A stretch of 39,162 bases of DNA from positions 1 to 39,162 of the forward strand of contig CANQMD010000005.1 of assembly GCA_947624885.1 (NCBI GenBank), in the 5' to 3' direction. This DNA comes from an uncultured Clostridia bacterium. GTDB lineage: Bacteria; Bacillota; Clostridia; Christensenellales; CAG-917. The notes beneath the pieces were generated by a model. It was not told the DNA's origin, ran no database searches, and saw nothing but the letters and a program-made list of their open reading frames with translations. Positions 8,018 to 35,072 of this stretch are shown here, in pieces (the first letter of the stretch is position 1; each line of letters starts with the position of its first letter). Position numbers and translations under genes: made by a program.

Positions 8018-9334
8018 TCAAAGCGTCAGCAACAGCGCGGGGACAATTCCGTCCGCTCTGTAATAATAATCGTTCAAAATGCTGCCGTCGTACATAATTG
8101 TCGTGATTTTGGTCGCGTTAGTCGCGTTTTGCGAACGCAACCACCACGTTCCATAGCCGTGATATTTTTTGAGCCCCTTGTTTGATTCGGGCACGGTATA
8201 CGCTCCGCGAACTCTCGCGTATGCCGTCGTCTTTCTGTTTATAGCAAACGAATCTTCATGCATTGTCGTCACTTCGCTTTCGCTCGGCAAAAACACTTTG
8301 TCCAAGGTGTCCTCGCACACGTTGGGATTGTCGGGATTCGAAGTGGAAGCGGCGCTGTTGTCGACCGTGGCCTGCAGAATAAATTTCGCCTCGACGTCGT
8401 TGAACGCGTCGGCATAAAAGTTTTCGTTGAGCCATTGGCGAACATTGCTGTTTTTGTAGCCGTCGTCGGCGGCGCTCCAATATTGCCCGTCCAAAATGAG
8501 ATTTGCAACGAGCGTCATCTTGTTGTCGTCCGTCCTCACCGAAACCCATTCGATCGGCTCCCACTTGAACCAATACACGGTTTCCACCTCATATCCGTTG
8601 CTAAGTTGATTGCTATTGTTGTTGTGATACCAGATCGCAAAATACAAGTTTGTCAAAAAATATACTCCTCTGTATTTGTTTCCGCCGTGCTCGACGTCTA
8701 TATACCACATATCCTCCTCGAAAGTCGCTTCGCCCTCGCAATAAAATTTGATATATTTTGACCAACCGTGCGCGTTCTCCAATGTGGGTTTTTCGCCCGC
8801 TTTTGCGTTAAGTTCCGCTATGAGCGCGGCGTCATCAACTTCGCTTTGCGGATAATTGCCGAAATATATCTTGCCGTTTTCGGACTTGTATATCTCGTTT
8901 TCGAGCCCGCACACCGTGCATTTTGCTTTGCCGTTTTCAAGTTTATCTCCCCAGGTGTGCTCTCCCGTCTTTGGAATTGTCTCCTCTCCGTCGAGTTTTT
9001 CACCGCACACGGCGCATTTTTTATATTTATGCCCGTCTCTCACGCAAGTCGCCTCGACGTCGACCTCCCACGTTTCGGTATGTTCGCCCGTCGCGGGAAT
9101 GACCGTATCCGACAATTTTATTTCATTTTTGTTCGCGTCGAAATATCTCCCGCATTCGCAAGTATAATACAAACTGTTGCCGGCCAGCACGCAGGTAGGA
9201 CTGTTCGCTGCAACTTCGACATAGTTGTGCGTATGTGCGGTTTGAGCCTTGCCGTCGCACGCCGCAAGCGCCATCGCGGCGATAGCCAACGCCAAAGCCA
9301 CCGCCAAAATCAAAAGACGTTTGTTCTTTTTCAT
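8018..9334 (-). CDS. Secreted lipoprotein with CxxC repeat region and DUF6273-like C-terminal domain
   Basis: Signal peptide with lipobox-like 'AAMALAACDGK'; repeated 'GEHT..CxxCG' modules; C-terminal 'GKIYFGNYPQSEV...EPIEWVSVRTDDNKMTLVANLILD...SNVRQWLNENFYADAF...KVFLPSESEV...WWLRSQN...DGIVPALLL' matches the DUF6273 layout. Confidence 0.75.
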   Translation of the reverse strand: MKKNKRLLILAVALALAIAAMALAACDGKAQTAHTHNYVEVAANSPTCVLAGNSLYYTCECGRYFDANKNEIKLSDTVIPATGEHTETWEVDVEATCVRDGHKYKKCAVCGEKLDGEETIPKTGEHTWGDKLENGKAKCTVCGLENEIYKSENGKIYFGNYPQSEVDDAALIAELNAKAGEKPTLENAHGWSKYIKFYCEGEATFEEDMWYIDVEHGGNKYRGVYFLTNLYFAIWYHNNNSNQLSNGYEVETVYWFKWEPIEWVSVRTDDNKMTLVANLILDGQYWSAADDGYKNSNVRQWLNENFYADAFNDVEAKFILQATVDNSAASTSNPDNPNVCEDTLDKVFLPSESEVTTMHEDSFAINRKTTAYARVRGAYTVPESNKGLKKYHGYGTWWLRSQNATNATKITTIMYDGSILNDYYYRADGIVPALLLTL

Positions 9335-9359: not shown

Positions 9360-9417
9360 TTGATTAAATTATTTAATCAACACACGCAATTATAGATAAG
9401 ATTATCTAATCTGTCAA
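9360..9417 (-). promoter_or_regulatory. Consensus promoter with two palindromic operator candidates for the lipoprotein gene
   Basis: Minus strand TTGACA (9412-9417)-17-TATAAT (9389-9394). Palindrome TAGATAA-GA-TTATCTA 9393-9408 lies in the spacer and the edge of -10; palindrome TTGATTAAAT-T-ATTTAATCAA 9360-9380 lies just downstream of the expected +1. Confidence 0.8.
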
Positions 9418-9465
9418 TACTAAATTATCAAAAAACTTTATATTTCTTGAGTAAAAGAGGTGAAT

Positions 9466-9789
9466 ATGATAAGATTTTTTGAACTTAGAGGGGAAAAAGG
9501 CATTTCCCAACGCGAAATCGCAAAAATCTTTGACATAAGTCAGGCAACCTACAACAATTGGGAGAACGGCAAAACGCAGCCGTCCATCGAACAACTCATC
9601 GCGCTTGCAAAATTTTACGGCGTTTCTGTGGATTATCTCATTGGCAACAGCGACGACGCAGGCATCATCAATTATGACAAACCCCAACTCTCCGACGAAG
9701 AAACTCAGCTTCTGCGCGCGTTTCGCCCCCTGCCCCATGAAACGCGAACGAGTTTTCTCAAACTGATGCAAGATATGAGCAACTCCTGA
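9466..9789 (+). CDS. XRE-family HTH transcriptional regulator
   Basis: 'LRGEKGISQREIAKIFDISQATYNNWENGKTQPSIEQLIALAKFYGVSVDYLIGN' is a canonical Cro/CI HTH; AGAGG RBS. Confidence 0.9.
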   Translation: MIRFFELRGEKGISQREIAKIFDISQATYNNWENGKTQPSIEQLIALAKFYGVSVDYLIGNSDDAGIINYDKPQLSDEETQLLRAFRPLPHETRTSFLKLMQDMSNS

Positions 9790-9895: not shown

Positions 9896-10441
9896 ATGTT
9901 TATAGGCGCTTTCAACAAGAAAAACAACTTTTGCGAAAAAGAATGGGTATACAAAAAATGGGGACTGCAATATGCCTTTGACGCGCAAATTTTCGGCGAT
10001 GTCGCGGACAATATAGTGCGGCTCCTCGGCGACAAAACTACATATACGGTCGAGGACGCTTACAAATATTTTCATCTGACATACAACGCGTATCAAATCG
10101 ACTATAAGCAATTTTACAACTATTGCCACACGTACTCTCCAAAACTTTTCGACATCTCTCAACCTACAATAAGCGACGATCGCGACATAGAGATCTTGGC
10201 AGAGGATGCGGGCAAATTTTTCGCATATCTGAAAGACGGGCAATATACAGATGAAAAAGCGCTCGCATTGGTGATAGACAACGGCTTTCTTCGCGATATG
10301 ACGGGGTCGACTTCCGACGACAATTTGATTTTGGTCATCGGCACTTTAGACGGCACGATGATAAATTCCATGAAAGTCCTCCTCCACCCCAATATACCTG
10401 AAATCGAATACGCGCTTGACTTTTTCAGACAGCACAGTTAA
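9896..10441 (+). CDS. Hypothetical protein (181 aa)
   Basis: Strong RBS (TTTGGAGGTAAAAATG); ORF MFIGAFNKKNNFCEKEWVYKKWG...; no family recognised. Confidence 0.65.
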   Translation: MFIGAFNKKNNFCEKEWVYKKWGLQYAFDAQIFGDVADNIVRLLGDKTTYTVEDAYKYFHLTYNAYQIDYKQFYNYCHTYSPKLFDISQPTISDDRDIEILAEDAGKFFAYLKDGQYTDEKALALVIDNGFLRDMTGSTSDDNLILVIGTLDGTMINSMKVLLHPNIPEIEYALDFFRQHS

Positions 10442-10786: not shown

Positions 10787-10816
10787 TTTATCGATTAAAC
10801 ATCCGTGAGGTGCATT

Positions 10817-11455
10817 ATGGTTTCGGACAAGTCTGAAATTTCAAAGGCTACGCTCAACAGGTTGCCGTCCTATCTCAGGTATCTCTACGAACTTGACAAA
10901 AAGGGCGAGCAAACCGTTTCCAGCACAATGATAGCGGCGGGGCTGGACCTCAACCCCGTGCAGGTGCGCAAGGATATCGCCTTTGTTGCGACATCTCCCG
11001 GCAAACCGAAACTCGGCTATGTCACAAAGGAACTCATTGCGGATTTTGAAAACTTCCTTGGCTACCACAACACGCGCGACGCGGTTTTGGTGGGAGCGGG
11101 CGGACTTGGTCACGCGATCCTTGGCTACGACGGATTTGCAAAATACGGCTTGAACGTCATTGCCGCCTTCGACATAAATCCCGATGTGATCGGCAAAACC
11201 ATTAACGGCAAACCCGTCTACGAAATGGCACGCCTGCCCGAACTTGTCAAACGTTTCAACATCCGCCTCGGCATCATCACCGTTCCATCGCAGTCCGCTC
11301 AAGAAGTCGCAGATCTCATGGTGAACGCGGGCATAAAGGCGATTTGGAGTTTCGCCGCAAAGCACCTCAATCTGCCCGCAGGAGTCGCCCTCAAGCACGA
11401 GGATCTTGCCGCGTCGTTGGCTCTATTGCGCATGCAACTCGTTTCCCAAGATTAA
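10817..11455 (+). CDS. rex: Redox-sensing transcriptional repressor Rex
   Basis: 'SKATLNRLPSYLRYLYELDKKGEQTVSSTMIAAGLDLNPVQVRKDIAFV', 'VLVGAGGLGHAILGY', 'IAAFDINPDVIG'. Confidence 0.94.
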   Translation: MVSDKSEISKATLNRLPSYLRYLYELDKKGEQTVSSTMIAAGLDLNPVQVRKDIAFVATSPGKPKLGYVTKELIADFENFLGYHNTRDAVLVGAGGLGHAILGYDGFAKYGLNVIAAFDINPDVIGKTINGKPVYEMARLPELVKRFNIRLGIITVPSQSAQEVADLMVNAGIKAIWSFAAKHLNLPAGVALKHEDLAASLALLRMQLVSQD

Positions 11456-30207: not shown

Positions 30208-33200
30208 TCATTGCATCCAATCGCTGAAGTTTGTCCACTCGGCAAATCCGTCGTAGTACAACTCGATCTCGATATCGCCGCTCCCGTCCTCAACATGGAT
30301 CGTGAGCAGTCCGCCTTCTGCCTCAAAGAAGCCGCCCAACTCGTATGACCCATGCGCTGTGAAGATTGTGATGAGCGCATATCCGTCCATTCCCTCCTCA
30401 AATGCGCCTTGTCCGTATTTTGCAAAGTCCTCCTCGTTGTAGACCTCGATCAAAATGGACATGGATGAGGGTGAGAAGATGTTGTAGCTTATGCGCCTTG
30501 CGCTGCCTGTCGCAAAGTCGACGACGTACATGAGGGTGTTGTCGTTCTCATCCTGAATGATGTATCTGGTGTCCTTTTCGCCCGCATACACAACGCCGAA
30601 GTTGTTGAAGTTGCCGGCGTGCTCCACGCCCAGAGAGTCATAAAACTCCACGTCGTCAAATCCGTTGAAGTGCAGTATGCTTCCGTCGTTGGCGTACACG
30701 ATCTTGTCCTCCGCCTCGTTGTAAGCCACCACGCCCACAAGATACTCCGTGTTGCCAAGGATATCCTCGCGTGAAAGCGGGTATGACTTGTACACTTGCA
30801 CGATTTCAAAGCTGCTTGCATCCTGACTCAGCGTTCCCACTTTGATGAAGTCCGTAGAATCGTCATCCGGGTCATATGGATTGGATCCAAACATATAATC
30901 GCCGATCAGCGATCCCTGCCCCGCAGTTGTTGCGCGGTAGGCGTGTCCGAGGCCGTCAAAGTACACGCTCGGAGTTTCCGACAGCATGAGGGACGCAGAT
31001 GTCGCGGTGTAATAGAATTCGTATGCCATACCTCTCTCAAGCCCATATGCCGCAAGATACGGCTCGCCGTCCTTCTCTCTTTCAAGCAATTCCGTCCTGC
31101 CGTTTTGCGCAATGAACACGTACGTCTTGGTCTGTTGGTTGTAACTCACGCTGCCTCTCATCGTCCGCTGTCCCGTGACGAGTTCCGCCACCTCATAGAA
31201 GCCCTTGATCGTGAGGCTTCCCGACAGCATGACAGTCGGATCGCCGTCAATCGTGCTGTGACCTGCCTCGTACAGATAGATGTTGCCGGAATATATCTCA
31301 AAATGCAGTTCGAGATCCTCGTCATACAGTTTGAGTTCGTCGTTCTCGTCGATGATGAACTTTGCGCTGTACGGCTTGTAGTCCGCGTCGATCGCCTCAA
31401 ACGAATATATTCCGTATGCGTCCTTAAGCAACGTCCCCGCGACGACCTGATCGCCTGCTTGCAACAGCGTGGCTTCAAGCGTATTGAAGTTGATGGAGAT
31501 CGTATATTCCGTTCCGTCTATCGTAATCAGGTATTCTCCGCTCGTCACTTCCTCGCGATGGGGATCGTAGATGATCAGTCTGTGCCCATCAAGATCGAGG
31601 GAGAAACTCACGTCTATATCGTTATCAAGATCGCGGAATCTGTACATTCCGCCGTTGTTGTAGTAGTATCCGCTGTACGTTCCACCGTTGCCGTCGTTGT
31701 AGGTCGCGCGGCCGAGATTGTCAAGCTGTATGGACTTTGCTCCATCCTCCGTGAATGTGCCTGAGGGCAGCGACGGGTTGCTTTCCACGACGGTCCTCTC
31801 GCTCATGATCATATCGGAGTAATAGAATTCAAACATCGTCGCATACTCGGCTTCGGCGCTCATTCTGGACTTGAACTCAAACGTATTGCCGTCTGCCTTT
31901 TGCTCGACTTTGCCGTCGTCGCGTACTCTTTCGCCAATTGTGTACGAGGAGTTGCTTGAGGAGATGTTGTACAGTTCGGCCTTGCTGCCATCGTCCCAAA
32001 TGCGGATGAGATACACCGCTCTGAGCGTTGCGGGATTGAGCACCAGATAATCGCTGTAGCCCACCTTTGCAAACGTTGCGTCCGCCGCCGACGGCATAAA
32101 CTTGAGCGTACTCTCGTCCTCAAAGGTCGCCACATACACGTTGTTTTGCACGCTGAATGTTCCCGTATGTACGGTATCTTCCGCGCCCTCCGCGCCGGGC
32201 ACAGAATATTTTGCGTTGCCGTAGCAGTCCACCTGCAAGGTTTCCGCCTTGGCGGTTTCATTTTCCTTGTAGGAGAACGTTCCGCTTGCAAGGGTCATAT
32301 TTGCAAACAGATAAAATTCCTCTTCCTGCTTGATCGCGTAATATGTGGAGCCGCTCACACTCAACCTGTACACCGTATCATCCTTGCCTTCCGCCTTGCC
32401 GTATATGGGTTTGGGATACTCTCCCGTCGCTTGCGCGATAGTGCCGTGTCCGTAAAATCTCGGCTCGTCGCTTGTGCCGATATATCTGAACATTGCAAAT
32501 CCGCCGTAATACTCAAACAGTATCCCGCCGTTTTCGTCGCCGTCCGCGATGCCCCACATAGCCATTTGGATGAGCAATGCGGTCGGGTTTGTATCCTCCG
32601 TGCCGAACGTGTCGATGAGGAACGCGCCCTCCTCGCCCATGATCGTCATGCCGTAAGCAAACCCATATTCTTGATTCTCAAACACAACGGTATCTTCGCC
32701 GTTTGTATATTTTGCTTTTCCGTCGCCGCTCAGCGCGAGTTGTCCCGCGGGCTGACCCTTCAGGTCAAGCACATCAAATGTCAACTCCGCAAGCGTCATT
32801 TGATGAGTCACAACGGTCGGGATACCCTTCTCGCTCGTGCGATCGGGGTCGTCCGCAAAGTAGATCACGTATTCTTTTCCGCTGAACAATTTGCCTTCTT
32901 GCTGCGTCGTAACGGTGCCCTCCGATACTTCGACAAATATAATGTTACCCGAAGCGGACTCGTTCGCCGTCAGATAAAACGCCTTTTCGGCTGTTTCCAC
33001 AATAGCGCCGACATAGCTACTGAAACTCGCATTGTACAAATAGTTCAGTTCGGCATGACCGTTGACCTTTATGAACTCGCCCGTAGCTGTGCCGCTGTCC
33101 ACTATGATCGAGTACTCGCCGCTCGCGGTCTTAAGCGAATACACAATGGCGGGCGACGCGTCCTCAAACCTCTCTCCGACAAGCGTCACTTCGCCCTCTT

Positions 33201-35013
33201 CCGCCTTGCCTGTCGCGTCAGTGTAAACGCCGTTGCCAAACCCGTCCGCCTCAAATTTGCTGCCGTCGGGATTGGTGCAATATGCAAGACTTGAACTGTC
33301 GCCGCTCTTGTACGTCATGACTGGCAAGCGCAACATACTCATGCCCAGCACCATGCTGTAGTCAGGTCTTATGAACATCTCTATATAGTCGTTGCTGTCG
33401 CTTGTTGCGCTGACGATCACGTCGCCGTCGCCCACAATGCTGTAATCGCCCTCAAATTGGCTGTCGTCCTCGGTGACCACTATCGCGTTGCCGTAGCCGT
33501 CAAGCACGATCCTATCGCCAACAAGATATCCTTCCTCGTCAAAGTTCTCGGCAAACAAGCCCGCCTCGCGCCCGCGCATCTGCATGATGTTGTATTGCTG
33601 CGCCGATGACGAGGGATTCTCCTGTATCTCAGCCGAGATCGGCATAAAGTGAATGTCAAATTGCACCGACTCTTCATCGCCATCCGTATACGTGACTGTC
33701 CGCATTATTGAGAAGCAGAAGTCGCCGCTGAAAATATCCTGCCAATATCCGCCGAAGTATGCGCCGGGTTGCAGCGTCGTTTGCACAACGTCGTAATAGC
33801 TGTCTGTTGAATAGATCGTAAGCGGCTGATCAAGCGTGAGCGTCGCCGCGCCGTAGCCGTCCACAAATTTGAAATGGATATGGTCGTAAACTTTCTCTTG
33901 GAACACGTCGCCGCCGACAAGTTCGAGCCCGTCCACATTAAGCGAGGTCTGAACATACGCAAAATGTCCGTCGCTGTAAACTCTGCCCGTGACGCTCACG
34001 CCCGACGGCAATTCAACCAAAAATGTACCCGTTGACGGATCGGAGTCCGTTGGGTTATGCGGGAAAAACGCGCCCTCAAACTCGCTGTCGCCACCGCGGC
34101 GTATGATCGCCTTGTTCCCTTCGCGAGCGGGCACAAACACGTAGTCGTCGCCATAGGAGTAATCAAAATATCCCTCGTCGTAGATGGCGTACAAAGTCAC
34201 GTTTGTGACCTTGCCGTCGATCAAGCTGCCGTTGCCGCCAAGAGGCGCTTTTTGACCCGCGGGCGCAAAGTTGACTCCTGCGGAATCTGTCGCCCATCCC
34301 GCAAAGCGCAGCGAGTACGGCGTGAGAAAATCGCTTTCCGGCAATTCGAGTTCCTGCCCAAAATACAGCGTTTTCGGCTGCATCTCGCCGATGGCAGTGC
34401 TGTCGTTTGCGTCAAAACTCACCGTGTACTGTCTTAAATTGTACTTGAGATACACGGTCTTTTGCTTCACGTCGACCCTTGCCTGCATTTCATCGCTTGT
34501 CGCGACGTTTCTGAAGCCCACCACATCCGGCAAATCGTAGTTGTACAAGTCAACATTGGGAGTGTTGGGATTCACCTCATAGGACTTCGCAAACTGTTCG
34601 TCGGGGACGTACGCGTCCTCTCCCGTTGCGGGTGTTCCGTCCGCTCCGAGAGTTTGCAAACTTGGCACTATCTTGAGTGTGCGCACCCATCTTGCGTAAA
34701 ACGTGACGTTCTCGCCGGGCATGACGGTGGGCAAGTCTTCCTTTCTGCTTGCAAAGCCGTTGTTCTCGCGCGACCAGCCGCCAAAAACGTACGACGTGTG
34801 CGAGGGGTCTGAGGGGAGCAGGTCGGTGATGTCGCTGCCCTCATCCGCGGTTATCGACTCCACTGCCTGCCCGCCCAGACTGTCAAAAGTGATCGTATAC
34901 TTTCTCGTGCTGGGAGCTAGCGGGTCTGTCCTTCCGTCACATGCCACAATGACGCAGAGCGCTGCGATCAGCGCCAACGTAGTCAGCAGAATTGCGAAAA
35001 TCTTTTTCTTCAT
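30208..35013 (-). CDS. Very large secreted lipoprotein (~1600 aa) with InlB B-repeat-like N-terminus and recurring DGYGNA-type units
   Basis: 'MKKKIFAILLTTLALIAALCVIVACDGRTD' lipoprotein signal; 'YTITFDSLGGQAVESITADEGSDI...FGGWSREN..FARWV' Listeria-Bacteroides repeat; later units such as 'VLDGYGNAIVV', 'EADGFGNGVYT', 'QVDCYGNAKYS', 'QLDNLGRATYN', 'YFDGLGHAYRA'. Confidence 0.85.
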   Translation of the reverse strand: MKKKIFAILLTTLALIAALCVIVACDGRTDPLAPSTRKYTITFDSLGGQAVESITADEGSDITDLLPSDPSHTSYVFGGWSRENNGFASRKEDLPTVMPGENVTFYARWVRTLKIVPSLQTLGADGTPATGEDAYVPDEQFAKSYEVNPNTPNVDLYNYDLPDVVGFRNVATSDEMQARVDVKQKTVYLKYNLRQYTVSFDANDSTAIGEMQPKTLYFGQELELPESDFLTPYSLRFAGWATDSAGVNFAPAGQKAPLGGNGSLIDGKVTNVTLYAIYDEGYFDYSYGDDYVFVPAREGNKAIIRRGGDSEFEGAFFPHNPTDSDPSTGTFLVELPSGVSVTGRVYSDGHFAYVQTSLNVDGLELVGGDVFQEKVYDHIHFKFVDGYGAATLTLDQPLTIYSTDSYYDVVQTTLQPGAYFGGYWQDIFSGDFCFSIMRTVTYTDGDEESVQFDIHFMPISAEIQENPSSSAQQYNIMQMRGREAGLFAENFDEEGYLVGDRIVLDGYGNAIVVTEDDSQFEGDYSIVGDGDVIVSATSDSNDYIEMFIRPDYSMVLGMSMLRLPVMTYKSGDSSSLAYCTNPDGSKFEADGFGNGVYTDATGKAEEGEVTLVGERFEDASPAIVYSLKTASGEYSIIVDSGTATGEFIKVNGHAELNYLYNASFSSYVGAIVETAEKAFYLTANESASGNIIFVEVSEGTVTTQQEGKLFSGKEYVIYFADDPDRTSEKGIPTVVTHQMTLAELTFDVLDLKGQPAGQLALSGDGKAKYTNGEDTVVFENQEYGFAYGMTIMGEEGAFLIDTFGTEDTNPTALLIQMAMWGIADGDENGGILFEYYGGFAMFRYIGTSDEPRFYGHGTIAQATGEYPKPIYGKAEGKDDTVYRLSVSGSTYYAIKQEEEFYLFANMTLASGTFSYKENETAKAETLQVDCYGNAKYSVPGAEGAEDTVHTGTFSVQNNVYVATFEDESTLKFMPSAADATFAKVGYSDYLVLNPATLRAVYLIRIWDDGSKAELYNISSSNSSYTIGERVRDDGKVEQKADGNTFEFKSRMSAEAEYATMFEFYYSDMIMSERTVVESNPSLPSGTFTEDGAKSIQLDNLGRATYNDGNGGTYSGYYYNNGGMYRFRDLDNDIDVSFSLDLDGHRLIIYDPHREEVTSGEYLITIDGTEYTISINFNTLEATLLQAGDQVVAGTLLKDAYGIYSFEAIDADYKPYSAKFIIDENDELKLYDEDLELHFEIYSGNIYLYEAGHSTIDGDPTVMLSGSLTIKGFYEVAELVTGQRTMRGSVSYNQQTKTYVFIAQNGRTELLEREKDGEPYLAAYGLERGMAYEFYYTATSASLMLSETPSVYFDGLGHAYRATTAGQGSLIGDYMFGSNPYDPDDDSTDFIKVGTLSQDASSFEIVQVYKSYPLSREDILGNTEYLVGVVAYNEAEDKIVYANDGSILHFNGFDDVEFYDSLGVEHAGNFNNFGVVYAGEKDTRYIIQDENDNTLMYVVDFATGSARRISYNIFSPSSMSILIEVYNEEDFAKYGQGAFEEGMDGYALITIFTAHGSYELGGFFEAEGGLLTIHVEDGSGDIEIELYYDGFAEWTNFSDWMQ

Positions 35014-35072
35014 ATTTGCTCCTTTCGGGCAATGCCCGATCAAAGATTGTAGACTTTTTGAAAGTACATAAT

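Follow-up and report, generated by a model that had tools for sequence, protein, structure and literature searches.

In promoters of the tetO/lacO type, whether engineered or natural, a repressor bound within the spacer between the -35 and -10 hexamers sterically excludes RNA polymerase. Other closely related arrangements have been described in phages and plasmids. In the S. aureus phage phi13, CI binds three palindromic sites located between cI and mor (PMC8516035), while Rco, an XRE-family protein of the B. subtilis plasmid pLS20, autoregulates and represses a divergent overlapping promoter via several sites (PMC4207663). In addition, RstR of phage CTXphi, as cited in PMC8402870, acts as a dimer of dimers in repressing the rstA promoter. 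In the literature that we searched, we found no XRE system with a spacer operator in the Clostridia considered here, which is weak evidence of its absence.

Here, we analyzed a stretch of 39,162 nucleotides from an uncultured Clostridia bacterium (the window), in which an XRE gene and a lipoprotein gene are divergently oriented. It is highly likely that the XRE protein and the predicted operators in the divergent promoter constitute a self-contained repressor switch. Its features are as follows:

8018-9334, minus strand: gene of the 438-aa DUF6273 lipoprotein, presumed to be the one under control (open reading frame, PF19789)
9360-9380, no strand: predicted operator O1, a 21-bp perfect palindrome with the core GATTA-N7-TAATC at 9362-9378 (from conservation beside XRE orthologues)
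9389-9394, minus strand: -10 hexamer TATAAT of the lipoprotein promoter
9393-9408, no strand: TAGATAA-GA-TTATCTA, which overlaps O2 in another register (perfect in 2 of 17 loci)
9395-9411, minus strand: the 17-bp spacer GATTAGATAATCTTATC between -35 and -10, which is exactly the predicted operator O2 (GATTA-N7-TTATC; from half-site conservation)
9412-9417, minus strand: -35 hexamer TTGACA of the lipoprotein promoter
9426-9442, no strand: O3, a candidate third operator that reads TATAAAGTTTTTTGATA on the minus strand and extends over the presumed XRE -10 (weak in the window)
9466-9789, plus strand: XRE (Cro/CI-type) repressor gene, 107 aa, with its ATG at 9466 after AGAGGTG (open reading frame, HTH_3)

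The divergent gene had been read as an XRE regulator from the sequence alone, and its product indeed matched HTH_3 (PF01381) with 69 bits against a cut-off of 23 (E 3.6e-19). Neither a sensor nor a protease domain was recognised in the 107-aa protein with Pfam or NCBIfam, and the C-terminal S24 self-cleaving domain that characterises a lambda-type CI was absent, with only HTH domains found in Pfam. The nearest named NCBIfam families were RstR (NF041951; 58.8 bits, under the cut-off of 80) and DicA (NF007257; 41.8 bits, under the cut-off of 101); the protein is an HTH_3 member outside these two curated families. This weak similarity, together with an architecture resembling phage CI switches, would be expected if the module were a prophage remnant, in which the chromosome has taken over an immunity switch of the CI/Cro type. 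However, no phage genes were apparent among the open reading frames of the window, where the neighbours are glyS, rex, upp and a uraA-like gene, and among 2.9 million viral contigs only five remote relatives of the XRE protein were found (at most 53% identity over 57 residues), none with the operators. A phage origin is thus unsupported by both the window and the viral-contig scan, and we regard it as quite improbable. No candidate for an inducer or antirepressor that would release the operator was found among the Pfam and NCBIfam matches. The strong inducibility proposed from the sequence alone is thus unsupported. Beside the XRE gene lies a 181-aa open reading frame (9896-10438, plus strand) that has no Pfam or NCBIfam match and also stands beside the XRE gene in the genomes G004 and G016.

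The XRE and lipoprotein genes are separated by 131 bp with a G + C content of 24%. On the minus strand, the order is promoter, 21-bp palindrome, ribosome-binding site and then the ATG of the DUF6273 gene. The promoter had been described as an exact consensus; it is TTGACA-GATTAGATAATCTTATC-TATAAT at 9417-9389 (minus strand), the sole sigma-70 promoter of the window that matches at 12 of 12 positions. The genome as a whole contains 28 exact consensus promoters compared to none for the reversed control pattern, and thus a perfect promoter is uncommon but not unique. Another exact consensus promoter, L124 (G000:C18:4981-5009), has the palindromic spacer ATACCCAAACAGGGTAT and possibly belongs to another regulator-operator unit.

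O1 corresponds to the 21-nt perfect palindrome that the sequence-only reading had placed near +1, and would span about +2 to +23 if transcription starts approximately 7 nt past the -10 hexamer. It exceeds every other perfect inverted repeat of the window in length and is unique in the 1.59-Mb genome even when up to three mismatches are allowed; in dinucleotide shuffles of the intergenic stretch, an inverted repeat of this kind with 10-bp arms arose with p = 0.002. O2 is imperfect in the window (9/10 half-site matches) and in register with O1, with their centres 33 bp apart, and two GATTA-N7-TAATC sites matching at 9/10 or better occurred in shuffles of the intergenic stretch with p = 0.0002, for a motif that was chosen post hoc. 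The other palindrome proposed for the spacer, TAGATAA-GA-TTATCTA, is present, and a genome-wide search found exact TAGATAA-N2-TTATCTA only once. It is unremarkable by itself because 7-bp arms arise in the shuffled intergenic stretch with p = 0.12, and its register is not conserved, being perfect only in the window and in locus L038. TAGATAA-GA-TTATCTA is probably not the operator as such. With respect to the three operators of a lambda-type CI, O1 and O2 are clear and the third is weak in the window; a site equivalent to O3, 30 bp upstream of O2, is clearer in six relatives (L036, L040, L042, L044, L063 and L064). The presumed -10 of the XRE gene (TTTATA/TATATT) is overlapped by O3, making autorepression plausible; this overlap suggests that the XRE gene may be repressed by its own product through O3.

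The XRE orthologues that were compared, with approximately 49-92% identity, come from other Clostridia MAGs, some in the genus of the window and others in further genera and families of its order. Upstream of them the same succession was observed, i.e., TTGAC(A/T), a spacer (G/A/T)ATTA-N7-TNNTC, a -10 hexamer and then TGATTA-N7-TAATCA, and the conserved spacer form GATTA-N7-TNATC exactly fills the 17 bp. Over 17 loci including the window, the spacer half-sites matched at a mean of 8.5 of 10 positions compared with 3.5 +/- 0.35 in shuffles at a fixed register; as the sequences had already been inspected when this register was picked, and as the loci share common descent, the effect size weighs more than the nominal probability. 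The O2-O1 spacing was 32-33 bp in 13 of the 14 loci measured by one script and 28 bp in the other. A held-out profile, for which nothing but the other loci's +1 sites was used, detected the spacer site with p <= 0.025 in 11 of 14 loci. Its p value was 0.001 for the window, 0.11 for L065 and 0.27 for L041, and in the latter two the spacer site is poor (6/10 half-site matches). The orthologues L057-L059 have degenerate sites only, some spacers (L043, L046 and L010) were assigned to a promoter by visual inspection, and several of the loci belong to one order and are not independent. We turned to the half-site and profile tests after a contiguous-palindrome shuffle test had failed on the core orthologues; that test (Fisher p = 0.57) was uninformative for them because its score penalises the unpaired N7 centre. 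When 297 genomes of the order were searched with the promoter-operator pattern, four matched, and each match was located just upstream of an XRE orthologue. Taken together, this footprinting, done on sequence only, agrees with the earlier proposal that operators of the XRE protein lie inside the divergent promoter, since the sites are kept across orthologues and are linked to the XRE gene.

In the own genome of the window, allowing 0-1 mismatch to the 19-bp form of GATTA-N7-TAATC yielded no further site, which fits a local regulator. A regulon elsewhere in the genome was considered and rejected: only sites with two mismatches were found, 26 per strand compared to 7 for the reversed control, and as several of them are copies of one repeat (TGCCTAAAATTTATAATCA), no further target is claimed. 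The sequence TG(C/T)CTAAAATTTATAATCA occurs about eight times in this genome (C1:35987, C1:36285, C6:25512, C36:12157, C59:3261, C65:1683, C117:4248 and C145:30) and is probably part of a dispersed repeat. The palindromes might alternatively serve as operators of another, global regulator, such as Rex or a protein of the CRP/FNR type; a rex gene (10805-11455) is indeed located 1.3 kb away, and TTGAT...ATCAA bears a superficial likeness to an FNR half-site pair. An FNR site is TTGAT-N4-ATCAA, however, and the N7 between GATTA and TAATC fits neither this nor a Rex box. In addition, the uniqueness of the 21-bp site and the lack of another near-perfect 19-bp-form site in the genome are unlike a global regulator, and in bacteria of other families the palindromes likewise stand beside XRE orthologues, leaving this explanation very doubtful. 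Predicted operators that lie in the divergent promoter and are linked to the XRE gene are best read as sites where the XRE protein encoded next to them acts as a repressor.

The 438-aa protein matched DUF6273 (PF19789) with 78.2 bits against a cut-off of 23.5 and has a signal peptide with a lipobox-like LAAC, as read from its sequence, in keeping with its description as a DUF6273 lipoprotein. A structure prediction from a two-row alignment was uninformative (mean pLDDT 35). Another lipoprotein-like protein of the window (30208-35043, minus strand; 1611 aa) contains a Listeria-Bacteroides repeat domain (PF09479). A DUF6273 lipoprotein is the divergent gene product both in the window and in L035, where an orthologue with 37-41% identity occupies the same place, and in L041 this place is taken by an LRR lipoprotein whose N-terminal region is common to the proteins of the window and L035. 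The divergent genes of other loci encode zinc-ribbon (L042, L063 and L064), TM2 (L043) or DUF4177 (L046) proteins, or proteins without a family. Approximately 16 related bacteria carry the same switch with a different controlled gene. In G004 (L034, 1-728), the XRE gene and both operators are kept with no convincing gene after the divergent promoter, and this locus is a natural cargo loss. Since most of the controlled genes are unrelated to one another, it is the XRE gene and not its neighbour that the sites follow. The sequence-only reading had described a switch dedicated to the DUF6273 lipoprotein, which these comparisons do not support. Judged from these comparisons, the conserved unit is the XRE gene with its predicted operators, whereas the controlled gene is exchanged.

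Such exchange bears on two other explanations. One is that the XRE protein is mainly a self-regulator or an activator, with the divergent gene as an incidental or transient passenger; this would agree with the unrelated divergent genes of most genomes and with the retention of the XRE gene and operators in G004, and activation of the presumed XRE promoter, which O2 adjoins, is conceivable. However, the best sites occupy the core and the +1 region of the divergent promoter, which is the place for repressing the divergent gene, and in 16 of 20 core loci the start of an open reading frame on the divergent strand lies no more than about 175 nt from the XRE start codon. We therefore consider this explanation unlikely. 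The other places the role of the +1 palindrome in the RNA and not in an operator, with a 5' hairpin stabilising or attenuating the mRNA of the lipoprotein. The transcript would form a 9-bp A-U stem near its 5' end, but at -5.6 kcal/mol (z -1.7) this stem is weak, and it lacks a U-run terminator. In addition, the half-sites recur in the untranscribed promoter spacer, and the perfect symmetry of the +1 palindrome is kept before unrelated genes, so that a function in RNA appears extremely improbable. Repressor operators in DNA are our preferred explanation of these sites.

XRE proteins with different recognition helices were found with different palindromes at the same place of the promoter. L014, L020 and L098 share the palindrome TTCTAAnnATAATTAGAA (TTCTAA..TTAGAA) and the helix LSNASISYWETG, L018 and L033 share a TACCA-type palindrome and the helix LNSVTYLHYEKG, and L068 has three perfect GCAAG-N5-CTTGC sites upstream of its XRE gene, approximately 28-32 bp apart, which by sequence is a textbook three-operator arrangement. 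The genome of the window has 22 HTH_3 matches. In the contiguous-palindrome shuffle test, spacer palindromes with p < 0.05 were found for 6 of its 15 other XRE genes with a divergent promoter-like site (combined p = 3e-4) and for 8 of 22 more distant XREs with a promoter (combined p = 8e-9), compared to 1 of 20 control promoters in the window. On visual inspection, palindromes lie within or next to such a promoter at about ten XRE genes in this genome. Other XRE genes with their own palindromes at the divergent promoter are L085, L088, L092, L093, L097, L098 and L100, with weaker cases in L086, L090 and L101, and these palindromes precede membrane, lipoprotein or zinc-ribbon genes. It is possible, although we propose this only tentatively, that many short XREs of the order each own a near-consensus promoter with a private spacer operator, re-used with unrelated envelope or membrane genes, and that genomes of 1-2 Mb thereby carry several independent plug-in switches for surface proteins.

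The following mechanism may be proposed for the locus in the window. The XRE protein, as a dimer, would bind GATTA-N7-TAATC. A dimer at O2 would exactly fill the spacer between -35 and -10 and thereby sterically exclude RNA polymerase, and a second dimer at O1, which lies at the start point some three helical turns further downstream, would reinforce the block; the two bound dimers may also cooperate. At the same time, the weaker O3 over the presumed XRE -10 would limit repressor synthesis. When active repressor drops, the consensus promoter would fire and the lipoprotein would be made. The sequence comparison shows the sites with their register and spacing, and also that they are linked to the XRE gene. 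The proposed block at O2 and O1 is most likely, given the geometry and what is established about Cro/CI-type repressors.

From these analyses, GATTA-N7-TAATC can be predicted as the DNA target of a regulator family in uncultured Clostridia that has so far been uncharacterised. Of most interest is the clean case of a regulator and its operators being fixed while the controlled gene is exchanged. If the pattern holds for the other XREs of these small genomes, it would explain the one-by-one control of many surface proteins and could be a source of orthogonal repressor-promoter pairs.

The switch is very probably real, and its predicted arrangement is of the familiar phage CI or Rco type. The phage CI switches (lambda OR; OR/OL/OD of TP901-1 and phi13) have as many as three palindromic operators between and over their divergent promoters. 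The switch resembles them in its Cro/CI-type HTH repressor, its divergent promoters and its predicted palindromic operators, of which the third is weak in the window, but it has no Cro/Mor counterpart, lytic genes or recognised C-terminal protease domain, its operators are approximately 30-33 bp apart, and the controlled gene encodes a surface protein or is otherwise unrelated. RstR and DicA differ from the window protein in the genes controlled and in context, in addition to the scores under the cut-offs. With Rco of pLS20 it shares an XRE regulator beside a divergent promoter with several sites, although autoregulation is only plausible here and a distant second operator, DNA looping and a countering signalling system belong to the Rco side. 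Compared to the tetO/lacO-type promoters, the repressor is of another family, and the length of the spacer is exactly that of the operator.
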